A stretch of 22,582 nucleotides of DNA from a virus, in the IMG/VR virus record IMGVR_UViG_3300025886_000176, positions 1 to 22,582 of that record, one strand, 5' to 3'. A program made the position numbers and the translations under genes. The notes beneath the pieces are model-generated. The model was not told the origin of the DNA and did no database searches. It worked only from the letters and a program-made list of their open reading frames with translations. Below, one piece after another: positions 513-18,373 of the stretch. The stretch's first letter is position 1. Every line of letters starts with the position of its first letter.

Positions 513-1337
513 TTATTCTCCGATCAAGGCAGCATAAGTCTTAGGGCCGACTATCCCATCTTCAGTCAAGTCATTTCTTTTTTGCCAGTCCATGACAGCC
601 GCCTTGGTCATTAGCCCAAAGATGCCGTCAGCGTCCAGATTAAGCGCCCCCTGCACTTTAGTGACCTCTGGGCCTCTAGAGCCAACCTTTAGCAGCACAG
701 GGGCTGTCTGGGGCTTGTATGAGCCATCTAGTATCGACATTGCTCGGTGGTAATGATGCTCCCGATCAGACAGGCCATTATAGCCGCCGTTGATCCGCTT
801 GGTTGCGCCCTTGATGTCGCCGTTGTCGCAGTATTTATTTAGGCCGTTTGTATTCCAGAACCAGCAGGCACTTTCCAGTGCGCCGTCCTTGGTTCCTAAA
901 TATTTAATTGTCGCATCTTTGCCCCTGCCTATGGCCTCTGCGAATAAACAATAGTTGTGCGCCCCAGTGAGTTGGATGACGCCACGGCCTCTGTGCATCC
1001 AGCCTTCTCCGCTAGATGTATCGCCATTACCCATACGATCAGCATAGACCACATTAGCGATACGCTCACTATCGCGGTGATACAACGCTGCGTCACGTCC
1101 TGCGTTTTTGAAGTATTTCGGGAATACTGCATTCAAGCCCTTTGCGGAGTAATTTAGATTTTCTTCTAGTACCGTAAAGTTCAAGCTCTCATGCCCACAC
1201 TGGGCGATAAACATTGCAATTCGCTTGGGCGTGTTGATCTGGTACTTGGCAAGAATATCTTTGAGAGGCTGCTCCCAAGATTTCCAGTCTTTATTGCCAT
1301 GCAGTAGCTGCTCAATTTGCCCCGACGATAATATCAT
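513..1337 (-). CDS. Endolysin: GH19 glycosidase with C-terminal peptidoglycan-binding domain
   Basis: This 274-residue lysis enzyme should cut the glycan strands of peptidoglycan. Residues 1-205 form a GH19 (chitinase/lysozyme-type) domain: AMFIAQCGHES at 41-51 carries the likely acid Glu50, EENLNYS at 58-64 holds the candidate second acidic residue, and GWMHRGRGVIQLTG at 112-125 is the family's hallmark loop. Residues 215-272 (LKVGSRGPEVTKVQ, DGIFGLMTKAAV, DGIVGPKT) form a PG_binding_1 repeat with the usual 'DGxxGxxT' turns. No signal peptide is visible, so release should depend on the holin. The start overlaps the holin stop as ATGA, with AGGA 5 nt upstream. Length and domain order are normal for phage GH19 endolysins. 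Confidence 0.93.
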   Translation of the reverse strand: MILSSGQIEQLLHGNKDWKSWEQPLKDILAKYQINTPKRIAMFIAQCGHESLNFTVLEENLNYSAKGLNAVFPKYFKNAGRDAALYHRDSERIANVVYADRMGNGDTSSGEGWMHRGRGVIQLTGAHNYCLFAEAIGRGKDATIKYLGTKDGALESACWFWNTNGLNKYCDNGDIKGATKRINGGYNGLSDREHHYHRAMSILDGSYKPQTAPVLLKVGSRGPEVTKVQGALNLDADGIFGLMTKAAVMDWQKRNDLTEDGIVGPKTYAALIGE

Positions 1338-5448: not shown

Positions 5449-7266
5449 TTATTCGCCCCATCCATCTTCTCCCCAGCCAGCATTGCCCCAGCCAAGTATA
5501 TCTATGCTTTCATTTCCAACGCCACCCGTGCCACCAACGCCAGTCTCTACTTTTTCAAGCTGCACTGTTTCTGCACCTACATCGCCGTCTCCAGCCACTC
5601 CAGCAGCGTCTTCTGTGCCTTCTTCAGTTACTGTGCCAATTGCACCTGTTCCACCAACGCCAGTCTCTGTCACTGTAATTTCTAATACTTCAGCACCGAC
5701 TGCGCCCGTTCCAGAAACACCCGCTTCTGCAATTGATATGTCGATAGCCTCTGAGCCAACGCCACCTGTTCCAGCAACACCAGCTTCTATTATTTCAAGC
5801 TGAACAATTTCTGGCCCAATTTCGCCATCACCAGAAACTCCAGATTGAGGCTTGGTTAATTCAAAGCTAGACGCTCCAATTGCACCAGTTCCAGCAACCC
5901 CAGCAACTCCAGCTTGCAAGTCAGCAACGTATGTTGGATTGCCGATTGCACCTGTGCCGCCAACACCAGCTTCATCAATTGATATTTCAAGAGCCTCAAC
6001 GCCAACCGCGCCAGTTCCTCCACCACCAGAAACTCCGCTTGGATGCGCGACAGGAATTTCAACACCGACATCACCGCTTCCAGAAACTCCAGATTGAGTT
6101 TTGGTTAATTCAAAGCTAGATGCTCCAACACCTCCATTGCCAGCCAGCCCAGAAACAGCTTCTGACATTTCTGGAGTTTCTGCGCCGATTGCTCCTGTCC
6201 CAGAAACACCATTCGCATTTTCTGTGCCTTCTTCGGTTATGTTTCCAACCGCCCCTGCGCCACCAACGCCATCTTCTGCTATTGATAGTTGAATAGTTTC
6301 AGAGCCTACATCACCATTTCCAGATACACCATTTGGCGTTGGCATAACTGATGGGGTCTCGACCCCAACGTCTCCTGCGCCACCGCTTGCAGAAACACCT
6401 GTCACAAACGCCGCAGGGATTTCATCCCCAACGTCACCATCACCACCAACACCAGTTGCGATCTCGCTTAATTCAACCACTACAGAAGCGAATACAGGAG
6501 TATTTGCCTGACCGCCCATCCCACTATGTACCGAACAATAATAGAAAAGTGTCGGTGCATTTTCTGCAACAACTATCTGAGTATACGCATTGGCCTGACC
6601 CGGTGTTCCTGATGTTGTCACGCCTGTTGTGTATTCACTTCCCCCACCATGCGTTCCGTTTGATGTGGTGCTGAATCTGAGCGGATGCCCAGAATTAGAA
6701 GATGCGCTCTGATCAAAATAATATGTCCTGCCTTCCATTAATTCCAGCGTGTCTTGCTGAACGCCAGCGATAAAGTATTTGTTTGCCCCACCAACATTTT
6801 GCACTGTCACTGCCAGCGTAACAACTTGATCAAGATCAACGGCAACACCGCCGCTGCCAGAAACGCCACTTACAGCAGGATCAAGAACTACCTCTTCCCC
6901 ACTGGAGCTTCCTGAACCACCAACGCCATTTACATCTAAATTTGTGTTAATAATTAAAGATGAAAGTCCAGAAAACGCTGTACCAGAAATTCCAACATTA
7001 GTTGTTAATCTGCGATCAGCAAATATGTCGAAATTAAAACCAATAAATACCTCGACATTTTCGGGATCGTTATCGGGCCGTGGATTAAACAGGGCGGTAG
7101 CGTCAACGACATTTTTTGCAGGCGTTAGCTGTGGGTTTTTGGGTTCCCAATCTTCTGGCGATACGCGCAGGCCGTCCCAAGTCGTTTTTAATTGCGTATA
7201 GGGAACGCGAAGGCCACTTCTATCGCTAATTGCTTGAGATTTTTTGCCCCGTGCGTATTTTGCCAT
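5449..7266 (-). CDS. Repetitive fibre-like structural protein with embedded cupredoxin-like domain
   Basis: This 605-residue protein has three parts. Residues 1-115 hold a conserved N-terminal region (LKTTWDGLRVSPEDWEPKNP, residues 26-45), probably the virion anchor. Residues about 140-265 form a compact beta domain with His194, Cys244, His247 and Met250 spaced like type-1 copper ligands. Residues 272-592 carry 16 copies of a roughly 20-residue repeat built on GVxGxGxVGxE. The end is Trp/Gly-rich (GWGNAGWGEDGWGE). The start codon directly follows the TAA of the gp4-like gene and has no clear Shine-Dalgarno sequence, so translation is probably coupled. A fibre or whisker role is inferred from the repeats and from its position between two connector genes. 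The copper domain is unproven. Confidence 0.7.
   Translation of the reverse strand: MAKYARGKKSQAISDRSGLRVPYTQLKTTWDGLRVSPEDWEPKNPQLTPAKNVVDATALFNPRPDNDPENVEVFIGFNFDIFADRRLTTNVGISGTAFSGLSSLIINTNLDVNGVGGSGSSSGEEVVLDPAVSGVSGSGGVAVDLDQVVTLAVTVQNVGGANKYFIAGVQQDTLELMEGRTYYFDQSASSNSGHPLRFSTTSNGTHGGGSEYTTGVTTSGTPGQANAYTQIVVAENAPTLFYYCSVHSGMGGQANTPVFASVVVELSEIATGVGGDGDVGDEIPAAFVTGVSASGGAGDVGVETPSVMPTPNGVSGNGDVGSETIQLSIAEDGVGGAGAVGNITEEGTENANGVSGTGAIGAETPEMSEAVSGLAGNGGVGASSFELTKTQSGVSGSGDVGVEIPVAHPSGVSGGGGTGAVGVEALEISIDEAGVGGTGAIGNPTYVADLQAGVAGVAGTGAIGASSFELTKPQSGVSGDGEIGPEIVQLEIIEAGVAGTGGVGSEAIDISIAEAGVSGTGAVGAEVLEITVTETGVGGTGAIGTVTEEGTEDAAGVAGDGDVGAETVQLEKVETGVGGTGGVGNESIDILGWGNAGWGEDGWGE
5491..6453 (-). 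repeat. In-frame tandem repeat, about 60 bp unit, 16 copies
   Basis: Residues 272-592 of the 605-residue fibre contain 16 units of about 20 residues, each beginning GVxGxGxVG followed by about eleven more variable residues, often ending in Glu or Ala. Unit spacing is 20 residues except where three extra residues are inserted (near 290, 411 and 453). Neighbouring copies differ in sequence, so the array is old or under selection for diversity. Near-identical pairs exist: SSFELTKxQSGVSG occurs at about 383 and 467, and TEEGTE at about 344 and 547. Such pairs would allow copy-number change by recombination. Confidence 0.85.
6472..6849 (-). other. Cupredoxin-like domain within the fibre (putative type-1 Cu site)
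   Basis: Residues about 140-265 contain GHPLRFS with His194 and, 50 residues later, YYCSVHSGMGG with Cys244, His247 and Met250. A single upstream His followed about 47-50 residues later by C-x2-H-x2-M is the ligand order of small blue copper proteins. Amicyanin has exactly the C-x2-H-x2-M spacing, and plastocyanin has His37 and Cys84. Surrounding strands (RTYYFDQS, YTQIVVAENAPTLFYYC) fit a Greek-key beta sandwich. I remember related sequences in marine phage structural proteins. Copper binding and electron transfer are inference. Confidence 0.55.
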
Positions 7267-7950
7267 TTACGATAAATTCAGCGCAGTTGGCTGAACCCTC
7301 AGACTGACGCCATCATTGTCGGACGCCGCCGCAAACGTAAATGCTCTCTCGTAAATTTCGTTCAACACTTGAAACCTGTCGGGTGCGTTTTTCAGCGCCA
7401 GCTTGCTTGCCAGCCCCGCGCAGATACAGTCACTCCAGCGGTATGGCACGTCAGCGTCTTGATTGCTGGCCGTGATGTCATCAAGCTGATTTACCGACCA
7501 GTAGACCATGCTGTATGTGGTGACGTTTGGTATCTGCCAGATGTAAAGAAGGGGCGTGTATTGCTTGTCCAGCATATACTGTGACGGCTTGCCCGAAGAT
7601 GTTTTGTTTGGCAGTTGATTGTAGTCGGCAATCGACACACGATTAATGATTTGATCAGACGTGTCTGTGCCTGCGCTGTCCCGAATGACGGCGTCCATAA
7701 TGTCTATAGTGCCAACAGGCAGCGTGTAGGGCGTTGTCTGGCCGTTTACCAGCGTCAGCGTCTGTTGCTTTACCGCCCAGTAATTGATGCCTCGGTTGGC
7801 CCACTCACTAAATAATAGGTTTAGGCTGCGCCTTGCCGACACAGCCTTGTAACCTGTTTGGGTTTGTGGATCGATCCCACACCGCTCAAATGCCTCTGCG
7901 ATGATTTCTTCGACATCTGGGCGAAACGCTACTGTATCTGAAGTCGCCAT
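7267..7950 (-). CDS. P22 gp4-like head-tail connector / tail accessory protein
   Basis: This 227-residue protein opens with a helical region (FRPDVEEIIAEAFERCGID, about residues 9-27; ARRSLNLLFSEWANRGINYW, about 39-58). A beta region follows (QTLTLVNGQTTPYTLPVGTIDI), and it ends in more helices (GLASKLALKNAPDRFQVLNEIYERAF). The pattern 'IxEAxERCGxD... ARRSLNLxxxEWxNRGxNxW' matches gp4-like tail accessory factors of short-tailed phages as I remember them. These form a ring below the portal. It lies at the start of the tail module, and its TAA abuts the ATG of the repetitive fibre gene. A generic connector protein is the alternative. Confidence 0.65.
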   Translation of the reverse strand: MATSDTVAFRPDVEEIIAEAFERCGIDPQTQTGYKAVSARRSLNLLFSEWANRGINYWAVKQQTLTLVNGQTTPYTLPVGTIDIMDAVIRDSAGTDTSDQIINRVSIADYNQLPNKTSSGKPSQYMLDKQYTPLLYIWQIPNVTTYSMVYWSVNQLDDITASNQDADVPYRWSDCICAGLASKLALKNAPDRFQVLNEIYERAFTFAAASDNDGVSLRVQPTALNLS

Positions 7951-9474: not shown

Positions 9475-10383
9475 TTATGCTGCGCCTTCGGTTCCGAATA
9501 CGCCGCGCCAGTCAGTAAAGCCGAAGCTATAACGCTCACGAACTTTGTAACGGACGTTGCCAGTCTCAAAGTCACCTTCCATGCCCTTTTTCATTGCTGA
9601 ACGGGTGAAGTGCTTGAGACCGTCTGGAACGTCAGTCGTAATGAAGAACGCATCAGGATCGGTCAGACGGCGCATGATATGATAGCCCTTGGGCAGATAA
9701 CCACCAGCCTTAATGGCGTTGATGTCGTTATCGGCTGTACCAGCGCGAAGCTGGCTTTCCAACAGGCGCTCTGCGGTAAACTGATAGGCAGTTGGAATAA
9801 CCAATTGCATACCCTGTGCCGCAATGCGAAGGCCACGATCATCTTTCATGTCGCTGATGTTAATCAGGATCGACTCAAGAGATGTCTCGGACAGGTCAGC
9901 CGCCGTGGCAAGCACGTTAGACTGAATGCCGTTCTGTGTTGGGTGCGATGCACTCAACAAAGTTTGACCGTCACCACCAGTAACACCAGCAGTTTGAGCA
10001 AAGTTTAAGACGTTTGCAGCCTTAATTTCTTTGGTCGATGCCATAGACCGTGCCAGCGCCTTTGTGTAACGCGAAGCAAGCGAACCATACTGACCGTCCT
10101 CTTCAGCTTCCTCAGTGATTGAGAACGCCAAGGCGACAGTTTCGTGCTGGTAACGCGCAGTCCACTGTTGGCTTGCACTGTCATAAGAGACCGCTCCACC
10201 CTCAGTTTTTGTTGGCGCTTGGCCGAAGCCACTCAAAAGTACGTCTTCTTCGTAAGCCTTTTGAGAGCTATTCGATTCAAAGACCGCAGTGTATTCGGCA
10301 GGGTAGCTATCGTACTCAAGTCCAAAGAGAGTGTTCAGACCCGGCTCTAGAGTTTTCGCAAAACTCGCTCTATTCATTGCCAT
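9475..10383 (-). CDS. Major capsid protein (Mu gpT-like, HK97 fold expected)
   Basis: This 302-residue protein forms the icosahedral shell. Early sequence (LEPGLNTLFGLEYDSYPAEYTAVFE) leads to an extended loop region (VLLSGFGQAPTKTEGGAVSYD). A long helix region (EEDGQYGSLASRYTKALARSMASTKEIKAANVLNFA) and the SHPTQNG signature at about residues 145-151 come next, then a C-terminal beta part (DPDAFFITTDVPDGLKHFTR, FGFTDWRGVFG). This is the Mu-like head subunit (gpT) pattern. AAGGAGG lies 10 nt before the ATG, the strongest Shine-Dalgarno in the window, as suits the most abundant protein. Scaffold and decoration-like genes lie upstream and a strong terminator directly downstream. Confidence 0.88.
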   Translation of the reverse strand: MAMNRASFAKTLEPGLNTLFGLEYDSYPAEYTAVFESNSSQKAYEEDVLLSGFGQAPTKTEGGAVSYDSASQQWTARYQHETVALAFSITEEAEEDGQYGSLASRYTKALARSMASTKEIKAANVLNFAQTAGVTGGDGQTLLSASHPTQNGIQSNVLATAADLSETSLESILINISDMKDDRGLRIAAQGMQLVIPTAYQFTAERLLESQLRAGTADNDINAIKAGGYLPKGYHIMRRLTDPDAFFITTDVPDGLKHFTRSAMKKGMEGDFETGNVRYKVRERYSFGFTDWRGVFGTEGAA

Positions 10384-12367: not shown

Positions 12368-12772
12368 CTACCCCAAATATGCGGCGACTTCGACGCCCTC
12401 TGGCAGAATAGACGTTAGCTCATCGTCATTCAGCAGAAGGAATTTCACGCCCTTTACAACAATTTTCTGACCAGCGTATTTACCGTAAGTCACGCGATCT
12501 CCGATTTGCGGCATAACGTCAGACTTCCAACGCTCACCCGTGTCGCGGTCACGATACGCTAAATCACCCATCGCACAGACGGTGCCGTGGGCGGTCAGGT
12601 ATTCCTCGTTGTCTTTTGAGGTGTCTGGCAGCAAAATGCCGCCTGCGGTTGTCATCTTTACCTGATTAGGCTGAACGAGAACCTTCCAATTCATTGGAAT
12701 TGGGATTTGATGAGAGCCAATCGTCGCGCTGGTTTCTTCATCAGTGTAGATTGCGTCATGTTGATGAGACAT
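12368..12772 (-). CDS. GroES-like co-chaperonin (phage-encoded)
   Basis: This 134-residue Cpn10-family protein would cap a GroEL-type ring for folding of phage proteins, most likely the capsid protein. After about 25 polar residues the core begins (IPIPMNWKVLVQPNQVKM). The mobile loop with TTAGGILLPDTSKDNEEY follows (about residues 41-58), then the roof and body strands (GDRVTYGKYAGQKIVV, FLLLNDDELTSIL). GGILLPD is the family's GroEL-binding region. I prefer the ATG at 12772 because GAGG is 8 nt upstream. The ATG at 12781, three codons earlier, directly abuts that GAGG. The N-terminal extension and the 15-residue insert around DLAYRDRDTGERWKSD are longer than in bacterial GroES. Its gene opens the head module. 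Confidence 0.88.
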   Translation of the reverse strand: MSHQHDAIYTDEETSATIGSHQIPIPMNWKVLVQPNQVKMTTAGGILLPDTSKDNEEYLTAHGTVCAMGDLAYRDRDTGERWKSDVMPQIGDRVTYGKYAGQKIVVKGVKFLLLNDDELTSILPEGVEVAAYLG

Positions 12773-12773
12773 G

Positions 12774-12971
12774 TTATTCATCCTCTTCGTTTAAATTTTT
12801 GATCGTGTCATGGATTACGTCAGCGGCCTGCTCCAGCCCCTCCGCAATGCCCACGTTTTTGTGATACGCCTCAAAGTCGGACATTCGACCCCGAAGCATA
12901 CCGTCAGCTATTTCCAGCCGTCTTTTCTCCAGATTGTTTCTGATCTGCTGGAGCAGATCGCTTATCGTCAT
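12774..12971 (-). CDS. Small helical protein of unknown function
   Basis: This 65-residue protein is predicted almost all helical (ISDLLQQIRNNLEKRRLEIADG, FEAYHKNVGIAEGLEQAADVIHDTIKNL). Its frame ends 1 nt before the preferred GroES start. The 'LRGRMxDFExYHKxVGxxxGLExA' middle looks conserved and resembles small phage proteins I have seen near head genes. The only Shine-Dalgarno-like stretch is GGGGGG, 8 nt before the ATG. The first third overlaps another small frame (12904-13035), so it may be translated by re-initiation. Function unknown. Confidence 0.65.
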   Translation of the reverse strand: MTISDLLQQIRNNLEKRRLEIADGMLRGRMSDFEAYHKNVGIAEGLEQAADVIHDTIKNLNEEDE

Positions 12972-14126: not shown

Positions 14127-16972
14127 TACAAGCCACCTCCTGTTGCCATCTCTTCATCTTCGGTCACTGCCCCCAATGTACCAAGGCCAACGCCACCAAA
14201 CGGCACCACATACTTTGGCATACCCATCTTGCGAAGGCCAAGCATTAAATCTTTTGTCAGTGGCAGGCCCAGCACATCTTCTGGCTGCTTACCTGTTGTC
14301 ATTCTCAAGGGAACGAAATCTGCCGTTGGGTCAGCAGGCTTTACAATATTCATTAAGTTTTTCGGCGCGATATTTCCATAAAACTGCCTGTGTCCCTCAA
14401 AGTCTCCACCCGTGTAGTCTTTAACCATTTGTGGGTTTGGCAGCGTTAGATAATCTGCACCACTTGCGATAGCGTCATTTAACTGCCTGCGAAGAACCAT
14501 GTCGAGCCACGCATCCGTGCTTTCAAGCATTGGTGCGCCCACAGTTGTGTTTTCCACATTTATGCCAGACGCCTCAAGTTTTCCCAATTCATCAGATTGT
14601 TTTTGTATCATGGGAGATAGTCCTGTATGAACATCAGCCCACGCAGTATATGGCTCTGGCAGTTTGTCTTTGTTTGCTTGAATGTATTCAGCAAATTCAT
14701 TTAATTTATCATTTAATTCAGTTGTGCTGCCCTGAGAGCCTTCAAAAAATGAGTGGTCATCTCTTATATTTTCTGGTTGAAGTTTAACAAATGTTCGATC
14801 TGTTCTGGCAGATTTAAGACTATTAAAAAAATCAGCAACAATTGTTTTGTATTCCGTAAGGGCTTCTGGATTATCACGAAATCTCGTATTAGATCGCCCT
14901 ATTCCATACCCAAAAACTTTTTGACTTAAATCATTTTCAGACCCGACCACATATTGTCTAAAAATGTCTTTTTGTTGTTCATAATTTTCTTTAAAAAGCT
15001 CTTGCTCACGGGTTCTTGTTGGCCCCACAGTGCCTTTAGATTTTGCCTTTCTTGTCGCTTGCTGAACATCCGACTGAGCCTCACCCAAGTGATATGCCGT
15101 GCCGCCAGTTTCTATTGGAAACTGCCCCGTTCGTGCGTGTGCAACAACATTTTCGTCATCATCAAAATGACCCGATCTAAAATATCCTTCTGAAAAATCG
15201 CCCGTGGGATCATCAAAGACATATCTGGTTTCAGTCATGTCTGTGCCGCCACTGGGGAAATAATTTGCGTATTCCAACTCAGCGGGATCGGCTACTGGGG
15301 CATCAGACCCGTAAAGTGTCATGTTAAAATTGTCTGGATCATAGACGCGCATTTCGTTTAGATTATTTTCTGCGCCTGCACGGGCCTGTGCCTCATAACT
15401 GTCTATGTTGTCCCGCCATTCCCAACCTGCGGCAGCTTCTTCTGAGCCAAAAACTTTTGTTTCTCCATAGTAGGCATCAGTTGCCACCCATCCATCAGGG
15501 TATTTTTCAGCAAGCTCTCTGCCATTGCTTACGCCATCTATTTCTTTTGCAAATTCATCTAGTGCATCAAAATTATCAGCAGCAACGTAACTGTCAATGT
15601 CTTGCATATTTGTACTATAGGTAAAGTTTTCTTTAAAGTTTTCTTCAAGGCCTTCCAAATAATTTTTAATATAGTCCTGTCCATTTGGACTATCTAAAAA
15701 CTCGTCTATACCGTCATCGTAGCCGCCAGAAGACGCACTTCTCATTACGCCTTGCGCCATTTTTTCTTCTTCTCTAATTAAATCTGTGTTTTGCTGTAAA
15801 TATTCCGAAAGCTCTTCTGGGGTAACGTCTGTGCGACCCTCAAACGCCTCATCGGCCCCCGACCATTCAAATTCTTTGGCCTTTACGCCGCTCTGCTTGA
15901 GCGCCAGCTTTTTGAGCTTTTCATAGCTGCCGCTTTTTACCTTGAGGTTTTCCACAGCATCTTGTGCGGCACTGTAAAACGCAACTCTTGTTCTATAAGA
16001 AGAAGTTGTTTGTGGTAATATACCCAAGTCTCCAGACGCCTGTTGTGCCAGCTTGGCCTCAAGAATTGTCGGGCCGTGTTTTTTATAGACATCATCGGGC
16101 GCGTGGGCCTTTAAGTAATTAATGTCGATATTTCTTCGCAAAGAAGGGCCAATATTAATAACGCCCCTAGCCGCTTCTATAATTAAATTAGCGGCGGCTG
16201 CTTCTGCATTTGTCTTGGGTATTGGAAGATCATATCTGTCGTAAAGCTGACGCAATTGATCTGTATTCTTTGCGTCCATAGCGCGGTCTACTGGGCGTCC
16301 AGCTTCTGCATACTCTCTTTTAACCGCATTTAAATATTCTCGTATTTCAGAATTTGTTGACCCACTTACTCTAAGCTGCTCCACATCCAGCTTAACTTGG
16401 GGATTTTGAAATGCTGGGTCAACACGCAGGGCAATTTCTAATCCTTTAGCGTTTCTGGCCTCTTCCTCCGCATTGGCTATATCAATATCTTCAAAGTCAG
16501 CGTCAACGATGTCATCGTCAACGTCAGCGTCATACATTCTGTTTGAGTGCCTCGCTATATATGCCTCCCCATCTACATCTGTCAGGGCATCTACAAGGTT
16601 ATTATTTGCAAGAACTTCATCTAGTCTGCCAGCACGAATTAATTCCAATGCGGCCTGCGCTCTTGCCTCTGCTTCGTTTGTTGGATCAGACAAAAACTGA
16701 TCTACATCGACTGTATTTCTAAGTATATCTGCGTTTCTTGCTCTAGTGGCATTAATACGCGCAATTTCAGCGTCAAAATCTCTAGCTGGATCAAAATATT
16801 CATCGTCTGGCAAATTCTCCAGCGCACCAAGGTCTTGAAAATCACCGTCAACTTCTGGCGTTATATCCACCAAATCATCGTCAGCCCTGCGCGTAATAAC
16901 GTCAGTGACAACATCTAAAACTTCATCGGCTGCGCCCCTAATAACCCTAGCTATTGCTGTAAAAAAAGACAT
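14126..16972 (-). CDS. Large polyvalent-type protein (putative ejected/internal virion protein)
   Basis: This 948-residue protein is the largest in the window. It starts with an amphipathic helix (FFTAIARVIRGAADEVLDVV) and a long acidic region up to about 340. Three segments match conserved blocks that I remember from large phage polyvalent proteins: SGSYEKLKKLALKQSGVKAKEFEW and TPEELSEYLQQN (347-395), FRSGHFDDDENVVAHAR then HLGEAQSDVQQATRK (598-642, compare 'GHWDEPNVLAHVR... EIQSDW'), and AWLDMVLRRQLNDAIASGADYLTL with HRQFYGNIAPKNLM (821-874, compare 'WHELALKRAxRYAAExGYD... fYD'). The end has a Gly-rich hydrophobic stretch (YVVPFGGVGLGTLGAV, 921-936). No catalytic residues can be assigned. 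Start and stop both overlap neighbours as TAATG. Such proteins may be packaged and injected, but this is inference. Confidence 0.6.
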   Translation of the reverse strand: MSFFTAIARVIRGAADEVLDVVTDVITRRADDDLVDITPEVDGDFQDLGALENLPDDEYFDPARDFDAEIARINATRARNADILRNTVDVDQFLSDPTNEAEARAQAALELIRAGRLDEVLANNNLVDALTDVDGEAYIARHSNRMYDADVDDDIVDADFEDIDIANAEEEARNAKGLEIALRVDPAFQNPQVKLDVEQLRVSGSTNSEIREYLNAVKREYAEAGRPVDRAMDAKNTDQLRQLYDRYDLPIPKTNAEAAAANLIIEAARGVINIGPSLRRNIDINYLKAHAPDDVYKKHGPTILEAKLAQQASGDLGILPQTTSSYRTRVAFYSAAQDAVENLKVKSGSYEKLKKLALKQSGVKAKEFEWSGADEAFEGRTDVTPEELSEYLQQNTDLIREEEKMAQGVMRSASSGGYDDGIDEFLDSPNGQDYIKNYLEGLEENFKENFTYSTNMQDIDSYVAADNFDALDEFAKEIDGVSNGRELAEKYPDGWVATDAYYGETKVFGSEEAAAGWEWRDNIDSYEAQARAGAENNLNEMRVYDPDNFNMTLYGSDAPVADPAELEYANYFPSGGTDMTETRYVFDDPTGDFSEGYFRSGHFDDDENVVAHARTGQFPIETGGTAYHLGEAQSDVQQATRKAKSKGTVGPTRTREQELFKENYEQQKDIFRQYVVGSENDLSQKVFGYGIGRSNTRFRDNPEALTEYKTIVADFFNSLKSARTDRTFVKLQPENIRDDHSFFEGSQGSTTELNDKLNEFAEYIQANKDKLPEPYTAWADVHTGLSPMIQKQSDELGKLEASGINVENTTVGAPMLESTDAWLDMVLRRQLNDAIASGADYLTLPNPQMVKDYTGGDFEGHRQFYGNIAPKNLMNIVKPADPTADFVPLRMTTGKQPEDVLGLPLTKDLMLGLRKMGMPKYVVPFGGVGLGTLGAVTEDEEMATGGGL

Positions 16973-18114
16973 TACGCGACCCCTGTGTTTTGAATGCCAG
17001 CCAATGCGCCTGCGTCCGACATTATGTCATAGCTGTCCCGCTTGTCTACGTCATAGGCCGCATTGGGCGATCTGATATCTTCTGGATTTAGAATAATCAT
17101 GCTGTCAGGCGAATATCTCTGCGTTTCCAAATCATCGCGCAAATCCATAAGCTGATCTTCACGGGCCATTTCCTCTGGGGTTTTAAAGTCTTCTGGGGAG
17201 TTTTGCACTTCCCAATCGCCTGCGGCCTTGATGCGTTTTATTACTTCGGATGCAGTTAGTGTTTCATCCGCTGCACGGGGAACTGTTGCCTCTAGTGGCC
17301 TTGTCGCCTCCATTCGCGCAGTCGCGGCGTCATTTATAACCAATAATTCTTTTTTTATTTCAGCGATCTTGGCCCTTGCTTCGGGGCGAATTGCGCCTTC
17401 TCCCTGTGACGTTGTCTCTACAAGGTTTTTATACACAATGCCATCGTATCCAGCCTTTTGTATTTCTGCGTTAATTATTTCAAGCAGTTCCCTGTTTTCC
17501 ATGCTTTCGATCCAATCATCTGGATCGCTATAATTTCCAATGGGATCGCTCATTGCGATGTCATCGAAGGCTTGCATTATTTCGTCTATATCTATTCCAG
17601 AGTTTTGGTATTGTTGCTTTTCAAGCTCTTTAATGACGTAAGAACTGTTTTTCCAATTTCCAACGTCAGGCATTCTGAGCGGATTATGTACGTTCACACG
17701 GACAGGCATTACCCTTGCCTCTGGGATGACTGGTGGGCTGTCGCTCTCGAAATTACCATAGCTGGGTATTTCACCCTTTATTCTTGCCACGTCCAGCAGG
17801 CGCTCGTTGGCCTGCTCTGGTGTGCCAACGTGTACGCCCAAGTCCAGCATGGCAGGATTAAACTCTGAGAAGTCGCCACGGGTGCCGTGATAATACATTT
17901 CTGGCCTAAATTCTTCGTAAAACATTTGATCCTCTGGCGATCTTTGCAGCGCACCCAACGCTGTCTTAGGTGCAGACATTGGAGGTTCAATTTTCTGCAT
18001 ATCTTCTGATGGGAGCGCACCAAACTTATTTCCCCAATAATCTACCGCATCACCGACAAGATTTTTGCCAGCTTTTAAGCCTGCCTTTATGCCTGATCCA
18101 ATTAAAGCTGCCAT
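16972..18114 (-). CDS. ADP-ribosyltransferase-like protein of the polyvalent (ART-PolyVal) type
   Basis: This 380-residue protein opens with a helix (MAALIGSGIKAGLKAGKNLVG). Residues about 70-230 and 338-350 look like an ART fold: YYHGTRGDFSEF (74-85, with His76 as the usual NAD-binding His), LGVHVGTPEQANERL (92-106), a strand pair VMPVRVNVHNPLRMPDVGNW (135-154), GYDGIVYKN (222-230) and SMIILNPEDIRSP (338-350). These blocks in this order match the ART domain of phage polyvalent proteins as I remember it. About 100 mostly helical residues (233-333) are inserted before the last strand, which is unusual. The third catalytic residue cannot be placed with certainty. I prefer the ATG at 18114, one base after the previous stop. 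A GTG at 18171 would add 19 residues. Confidence 0.6.
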   Translation of the reverse strand: MAALIGSGIKAGLKAGKNLVGDAVDYWGNKFGALPSEDMQKIEPPMSAPKTALGALQRSPEDQMFYEEFRPEMYYHGTRGDFSEFNPAMLDLGVHVGTPEQANERLLDVARIKGEIPSYGNFESDSPPVIPEARVMPVRVNVHNPLRMPDVGNWKNSSYVIKELEKQQYQNSGIDIDEIMQAFDDIAMSDPIGNYSDPDDWIESMENRELLEIINAEIQKAGYDGIVYKNLVETTSQGEGAIRPEARAKIAEIKKELLVINDAATARMEATRPLEATVPRAADETLTASEVIKRIKAAGDWEVQNSPEDFKTPEEMAREDQLMDLRDDLETQRYSPDSMIILNPEDIRSPNAAYDVDKRDSYDIMSDAGALAGIQNTGVA

Positions 18115-18115
18115 A

Positions 18116-18373
18116 TCACCAAGCCCTACATGACCAGTATCTGGCCTTGGTCTTCGGGCCGGGGTTATCACAATTGTGACGCGCCCTAAAATTAGATCGT
18201 CTGCCCTTTTGGTTTTTCTTGATTTTCATGTTGGGGTCGCCAAAGGTCACGCGCTTTACCCTGTCGCCGTCTGTAACGTACACCACAGACTTTTTCTTGC
18301 CGTAGCTGGTTTCGCCCTTTGCAATTCTGCGCGGCTTATTCAGTGTGACGCTCTTGCCTTTGTATTTTGCCAT
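18116..18373 (-). CDS. Small basic protein with conserved Cys/His/Trp C terminus
   Basis: This 85-residue protein is rich in Lys and Arg. Residues 1-48 have alternating strands (KSVTLNKPRRIAKGE, KKSVVYVTDGDRVKRVTFGDP). The C terminus FRARHNCDNPGPKTKARYW (about 62-80), ending SCRAW, has two Cys, one His and two Trp, and looks like a small metal-binding or DNA-binding unit. I remember this 'RARHNCDNPGPKxKARYWSC' ending as widespread in marine phages, without known function. GAGGA precedes the ATG by 9 nt. The frame abuts the 70-residue gene upstream and ends one base before the ART-like gene. Confidence 0.75.
   Translation of the reverse strand: MAKYKGKSVTLNKPRRIAKGETSYGKKKSVVYVTDGDRVKRVTFGDPNMKIKKNQKGRRSNFRARHNCDNPGPKTKARYWSCRAW

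Follow-up and report, generated by a model that had tools for sequence, protein, structure and literature searches.

Genomic context of the fibre gene

The window analysed here is a stretch of viral DNA of 22,582 nt (IMG/VR record IMGVR_UViG_3300025886_000176, positions 1 to 22,582), and its features are collected in Table 1. Placement of the virus rests on comparison of the major capsid protein, which identified Roseobacter phages CRP-901 and CRP-902 as the nearest cultured relatives (capsid protein 85% identical), and by this sequence comparison the virus is a marine tailed phage akin to those two. A GroES-like co-chaperonin near the capsid genes is also found in CRP-901/902. The window further contains an endolysin gene and an ORF with a weak ART-PolyVal match (ADP-ribosyltransferase domain of polyvalent proteins), the product of which may be an injected early protein.

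Table 1. Predicted features of the window, with positions numbered from its first nucleotide
Feature	Position	Strand	Evidence or remark
Endolysin, glycoside hydrolase 19 type, with C-terminal peptidoglycan-binding domain	513-1337	-	
Fibre-like virion protein, 605 aa	5449..7266	-	ORF and translation; synteny with CRP-901/902 gp53; PHROG tail-fibre matches
C-terminal GWGNAGWGEDGWGE motif	5452..5493	-	Retained in relatives with or without cupredoxin domain
Repeats of about 20 aa (n=16), G-V/L-S/A/G-G-x-G..., residues 272-595	5482..6453	-	
Cupredoxin-like domain, about residues 148-257	6496..6825	-	AlphaFold2; PDB fold matches; family of hundreds
Met250, predicted axial ligand 4	6517..6519	-	M in 27/27 clusters where aligned (60% identity)
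His247, predicted copper ligand 3	6526..6528	-	H in 26/27 clusters where aligned (60% identity)
Cys244, predicted copper ligand 2	6535..6537	-	C in 26/28 clusters where aligned (60% identity)
His194, predicted copper ligand 1	6685..6687	-	H in 28/30 clusters at 60% identity
N-terminal anchor, residues 1-105	6952..7266	-	74% identity to corresponding region of CRP-901/902 gp53
SU10-type adaptor protein, gene upstream of fibre gene	7267..7950	-	PF24175 E 1e-10
Major capsid protein	9475..10383	-	PF25209 E 1.6e-13; 85% identity to Roseobacter phage CRP-901
GroES-like co-chaperonin	12368-12781	-	NCBIfam E 4e-15, below curated cut-offs
ORF with weak ART-PolyVal match	16972-18171	-	E 3e-4, below cut-off

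According to its translation, the 605-aa protein consists of an anchor, repeats, a cupredoxin module, further repeats and a GWG tail, in that order. Residues 1-70 matched phrog_28581, and two repeats of about 20 aa, at residues 114 and 134, precede the cupredoxin domain in addition to the 16 that follow it. The number of these repeats varies among relatives, and the repeat region looks like a recombination-prone fibre shaft. The tryptophan-rich GWG motif at the C-terminus is kept in fibres that otherwise differ. Some relatives of the anchor (L182 and L193) carry CxxC pairs resembling a zinc ribbon (CDRCG...CRSCYEE); the anchor in the window has no cysteines.

The initial annotation had called this protein a phage fibre, and its surroundings and relatives support that. 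The gene adjoins that of the SU10 adaptor, the anchor and gene order are common to CRP-901/902, and relatives are tail fibres; in the records of S-TIM5, Syn1, P-SSM2 and HTVC028P they are annotated as virion structural proteins or tail fibres. We infer from this that the 605-aa protein sits on the virion.

Putative copper ligands and their conservation

Four residues of the fibre, His194, Cys244, His247 and Met250, had been proposed to form a type-1 copper site within positions 6472-6849 of the window (minus strand), which correspond to residues 140-265 of the 605-aa ORF. All four occur at those places in the translation, and the spacing proposed for them, H-50-C, C-x2-H and H-x2-M, was read there as well. 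Cys244 is the sole cysteine of the protein.

The proposal also depended on Cys244 and His247 being conserved among homologues, as proved to be the case (Table 1). Among 71 aligned relatives, only the columns of H194, Y242, C244, H247, M250 and G251 were invariant. When relatives were grouped into 24 clusters at 70% identity, the first histidine was kept in 23, and the cysteine, second histidine and methionine in 21 of 21 where aligned. The ligand order, His...Cys-xn-His-xn-Met, is that of type-1 copper proteins and is conserved across the family. At 60% identity, all but one of the clusters keeping all four ligands had the C-x2-H-x2-M spacing, and the distance from His to Cys ranged from 43 to 53 across clusters.

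Of the 284 viral and cellular copies pooled from all sources, 278 had a complete H-C-H-M set, and each of the remaining 6 had lost or lacked at least three ligands. One SAR86 copy, for example, reads N/S/A/M at the ligand sites, with an intact copy beside it in the same protein. C, H and M were lost in the P-RSM6 copy, and second copies in Syn1-type and S-H9-1 proteins have no ligand loop, with none of the four residues left in Syn1. Such all-or-none loss is the pattern expected of a metal site, and the persistence of copies without ligands indicates that in some settings the domain can do without the metal.

Two other roles for residues of the domain were considered and rejected. The nearby H206 was rejected as a fifth ligand since it is not conserved (94 of 106). 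A disulphide of C244 within the chain would require a second cysteine, which the protein does not have; a bond between chains is formally conceivable.

Predicted fold of the domain

An AlphaFold2 model of residues 140-265, built from an alignment of 71 rows, had a pLDDT of 92, a pTM of 0.84 and 9 strands. In model numbering, H194 is positioned just before strand 57-60, C244 at the end of strand 101-105, and H247 and M250 in the loop before strand 112-116, so that the predicted placement of the four residues on the strands matches the cupredoxin arrangement, as the initial annotation had anticipated.

Foldseek and VIA-align comparisons of the model were consistent with a Greek-key beta-sandwich of the cupredoxin type. 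Four PDB entries matched the window model in Foldseek at E <0.001, namely three rusticyanin entries (rusticyanin, E 5.7e-4) and a three-domain copper nitrite reductase (E 9.9e-4). AcoP and small laccases were the next matches, and antibody-like sandwiches started near E 0.01. In VIA-align, the nitrite reductase of Hyphomicrobium was matched through its N-terminal domain, with Z 9.0 and 4.3 A over 105 residues for the window model. TM-scores to solved cupredoxins were moderate, only about 0.5.

A second, independent model was made for a family member from Woeseiaceae, with mainly cellular relatives in the alignment (pLDDT 83). Its Foldseek matches were led by rusticyanin (E 7.2e-5), followed by nitrite reductases, CueO and plastocyanins, and nearly every match listed was a copper protein. 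VIA-align gave Z 9.4 and 2.1 A over 86 residues for this model, again with the nitrite reductase domain as best match, and all 50 of the 50 matches listed were copper proteins.

Relationship to known cupredoxins

No cupredoxin model in Pfam or NCBIfam matched the window protein, which is thus outside PF00127. The Woeseiaceae member, in contrast, passed PF00127 Copper-bind with 25.3 bits against a cut-off of 21.2, and the same gene (locus L266) was recovered by a PF00127 genome search. A family profile built without this member and one other borderline member was aligned by hhalign with plastocyanin-type proteins (probability 92, E 6e-7), with both histidines and the cysteine in register and the methionine out of register, shifted by the shorter loop of the family. 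Since the window protein has no PF00127 match, yet a relative passes and the profile aligns, we place the family outside PF00127, as a new branch of its own within the cupredoxin fold.

Searches of the PDB by sequence were less informative. The single domain retrieved only an antibody-type chain, and a profile search retrieved mainly antibodies together with a pseudoazurin at E 0.4, aligned at 'YQCAPHVGMG', which by itself is no evidence. A CBM_4_9 hint in Pfam was far below its cut-off and was dropped.

The closest solved folds share features with the fibre domain and differ from it in setting. Rusticyanin (PDB 1rcy, 2cal) and AcoP, both cupredoxins of Acidithiobacillus, were the best PDB fold match and have the same order of H, C, H and M, but they are periplasmic, only 13-19% identical, and not viral modules. 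The distance from H to C in rusticyanin is similar in size to that in the fibre domain, and its loop is longer, C-x4-H-x4-M. The best VIA-align match, the N-terminal type-1 domain of the Hyphomicrobium denitrificans three-domain nitrite reductase (2dv6, 6tfo), resembles the fibre domain in that the cupredoxin is one module of a larger protein, whereas in that case the domain belongs to an enzyme, and the identity is 18-23%. Amicyanin has the loop of the fibre domain, C-x2-H-x2-M, and plastocyanin has C-x2-H-x4-M; unlike the fibre protein, these PF00127 proteins are soluble carriers.

Taken together, the predicted fold, the conservation of the ligands, their all-or-none loss, the match to a plastocyanin-type profile and the relative passing the Copper-bind cut-off give the cupredoxin reading of the initial annotation good support.

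Distribution in phages and cells

The domain was found to be widespread. Each of two IMG/VR scans detected at least 595 relatives in the stretches that it covered, and 58 phage records carried the domain, including those of cyanophages, pelagiphages, Methylophilales phages and others. Genome assemblies, for the most part from marine bacteria and archaea, yielded 94 occurrences, many of them in phage genes contained in those assemblies. Residues 140-265 matched four PHROG families, phrog_30742, phrog_693, phrog_677 and phrog_27200, with E values from 2.7e-11 to 9e-22. These families contain the same domain, and their labels go no further than tail fibre, baseplate connector or unknown, with no mention of a copper site. 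Other carriers included PHROG tail fibres, baseplate wedges and a wedge-fibre connector.

In carriers of the pelagiphage type, PF03906 (T7 tail-fibre N-terminal domain) was detected at E 1.7e-36 and 7.5e-33, and the domain was located near the C-terminal end of these fibres, at residues 443-533 of 587 and 563-650 of 703. In the isolate HTVC028P it occupies residues 620-708 of 760. T7-type tail fibre genes with the domain were also observed in Pelagibacteraceae assemblies (L188, L196, L206 and L208, of which the first two were tested for PF03906). The contigs that carry them are as long as 133 kb, and the genes may belong to proviruses or co-sorted phage DNA.

Cellular carriers were of several kinds. 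SAR86 lipoproteins of about 170-190 aa (L225, L242, L246, L222) consist of little besides this one domain and could represent uncharacterised cupredoxins from a lineage abundant in the sea. In Flavobacteriaceae the domain occurs in giant surface-type proteins, longer than 3,800 aa, together with DUF7507, DUF11 and C-type lectin domains. On a contig that bears the label Prochlorococcus MIT 9201 (L226:2033-10940), 23 Big_5 repeats and the cupredoxin domain are combined in one protein, at least 2,969 aa long. These Big_5 repeats score also as CopC, a score that the shared sandwich fold may alone explain. In a tree of 101 copies, viral and cellular sequences were intermixed, with too few columns for the direction of transfer to be read.

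Variation in copy number among similar fibres

In order to count copies per fibre, we used only IMG/VR fibres whose end was complete and which had been retrieved with nothing but the anchor. The first 80 viral loci were left out of these presence/absence counts because they had been fetched by the domain itself. In the resulting set, with anchors 83-100% identical, 21 fibres had no copy of the domain, 36 had one and 11 had two. One locus (L297) encodes a fibre with an anchor 99% identical and the same last 30 residues but no cupredoxin domain. Similarly, gp53 of CRP-901/902 resembles the window fibre in its place after the tail-adaptor gene, its anchor, the type of its repeats and a similar GWG tail, and differs in having no cupredoxin domain. 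The occurrence of zero, one or two copies, together with the domain-free fibres of CRP-901/902 and L297, indicates from sequence comparison that the domain is an optional, recombining module.

Discussion

On the basis of the model and of conservation, a type-1 copper site made up of His194, Cys244, His247 and Met250 is highly probable. Copper binding by the domain is very likely, and we infer copper as the metal. We propose that the fibre probably carries an optional, copper-loaded cupredoxin module for contact with host surfaces. In this proposal, residues about 148-257 would fold as a Greek-key beta-sandwich with a short, amicyanin-like C-x2-H-x2-M loop, the module being inserted after the anchor and ahead of most repeats in the fibre-like virion protein. 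The occurrence of the domain in lipoproteins and giant surface-type proteins of marine bacteria is in line with this proposal. Bound copper would most likely pin together the ligand loops of the small domain, and the domain, displayed on the fibre, could aid attachment to cells or surface polymers. This last role is a real possibility that we would not yet call probable. It is favoured because the domain is distal in T7-type tail fibres, which keeps plausible the earlier suggestion of binding to a host surface; that such a surface should be rich in metal, as was also suggested, found no support.

Several other explanations were weighed against this one, beginning with whether a metal is bound at all. 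A metal-free beta-sandwich, Ig-like or carbohydrate-binding, could serve in adhesion with the four residues kept for packing. Weak CBM_4_9 hints (E 0.11 for the window protein, and 0.03), the antibodies and similar folds among the matches from E about 0.01, and the persistence of degenerate copies without ligands would all fit such a domain. We consider it improbable, given that it is precisely the type-1 ligand set that is invariant while its neighbours vary, that the ligands vanish together, that one cellular member passes Pfam Copper-bind, and that copper proteins rank ahead of other beta-sandwiches in the fold matches. Sequence and fold cannot tell metals apart, so that zinc or nickel might occupy the site in vivo. 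However, a Cys-His-His-Met set within a cupredoxin fold typically marks a copper protein, and the nearest solved folds are copper proteins, which makes another metal a faint prospect.

If copper is bound, its purpose might be no more than to stabilise the fibre, a role that the initial annotation had offered. Metal ions stabilise other phage tail parts, and the lone Cys rules out an internal disulphide as the stabiliser. The idea has nevertheless lost ground: because CRP-901/902 and 21 IMG/VR sequences combine this anchor with these repeats and this tail but have no copy of the domain, near-identical fibres among them, stabilisation alone is unlikely, with little more than a slim chance of being the whole explanation. 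A function in electron transfer or redox protection, with Cu(I)/Cu(II) cycling with a partner or scavenging of oxidants at the host surface, would agree with a ligand set that is the one of electron-transfer cupredoxins and with rusticyanin being among the best fold matches. A fibre outside the cell has no obvious redox partner, though, no partner gene was seen within the window, and the copy number varies freely, and we regard this function as very unlikely. The loaded copper might instead be bait, by which the phage docks on outer-membrane receptors for copper or metallophores. The distal position in tail fibres and the optional, recombining nature of the module, as receptor specificity would predict, speak for such a Trojan horse. 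Type-1 copper is normally buried and tightly held, on the other hand, and no receptor was identified in this analysis. Iron in phage tails has been discussed as a 'ferrojan horse' (PMC10892097), and host mutants in that work did not bear out the iron version. Bait of this kind therefore appears to us improbable too.

The proposal of an optional copper-loaded module for contact with the host can be extended, at a level that we regard as speculative and rather unlikely. Copper-loaded cupredoxin modules might act in marine tailed phages as metal-dependent host-recognition heads. Such modules would pass between phages and marine cells and would be acquired, doubled or dropped within a single fibre gene; attachment would then be gated by the availability of copper or by the host's copper receptors, and copper would be a component of marine virions.

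The cupredoxin fold and its ligand set were already known, and domains with such copper sites are familiar as carriers of electrons and as enzyme modules. In the openly licensed literature we found no report of this domain in phage fibres, and an abundant, conserved cupredoxin with the complete type-1 ligand set in virion fibres appears undescribed. If such domains are on phage fibres, a metal would be added to how marine phages contact their hosts, and whether metals on marine phage tails matter for attachment becomes testable. Phages that occur naturally with very similar fibres but 0, 1 or 2 domain copies are ready comparisons for this question, and among cultured phages CRP-901/902 lack the domain and HTVC028P, S-TIM5 and Melnitz have it.
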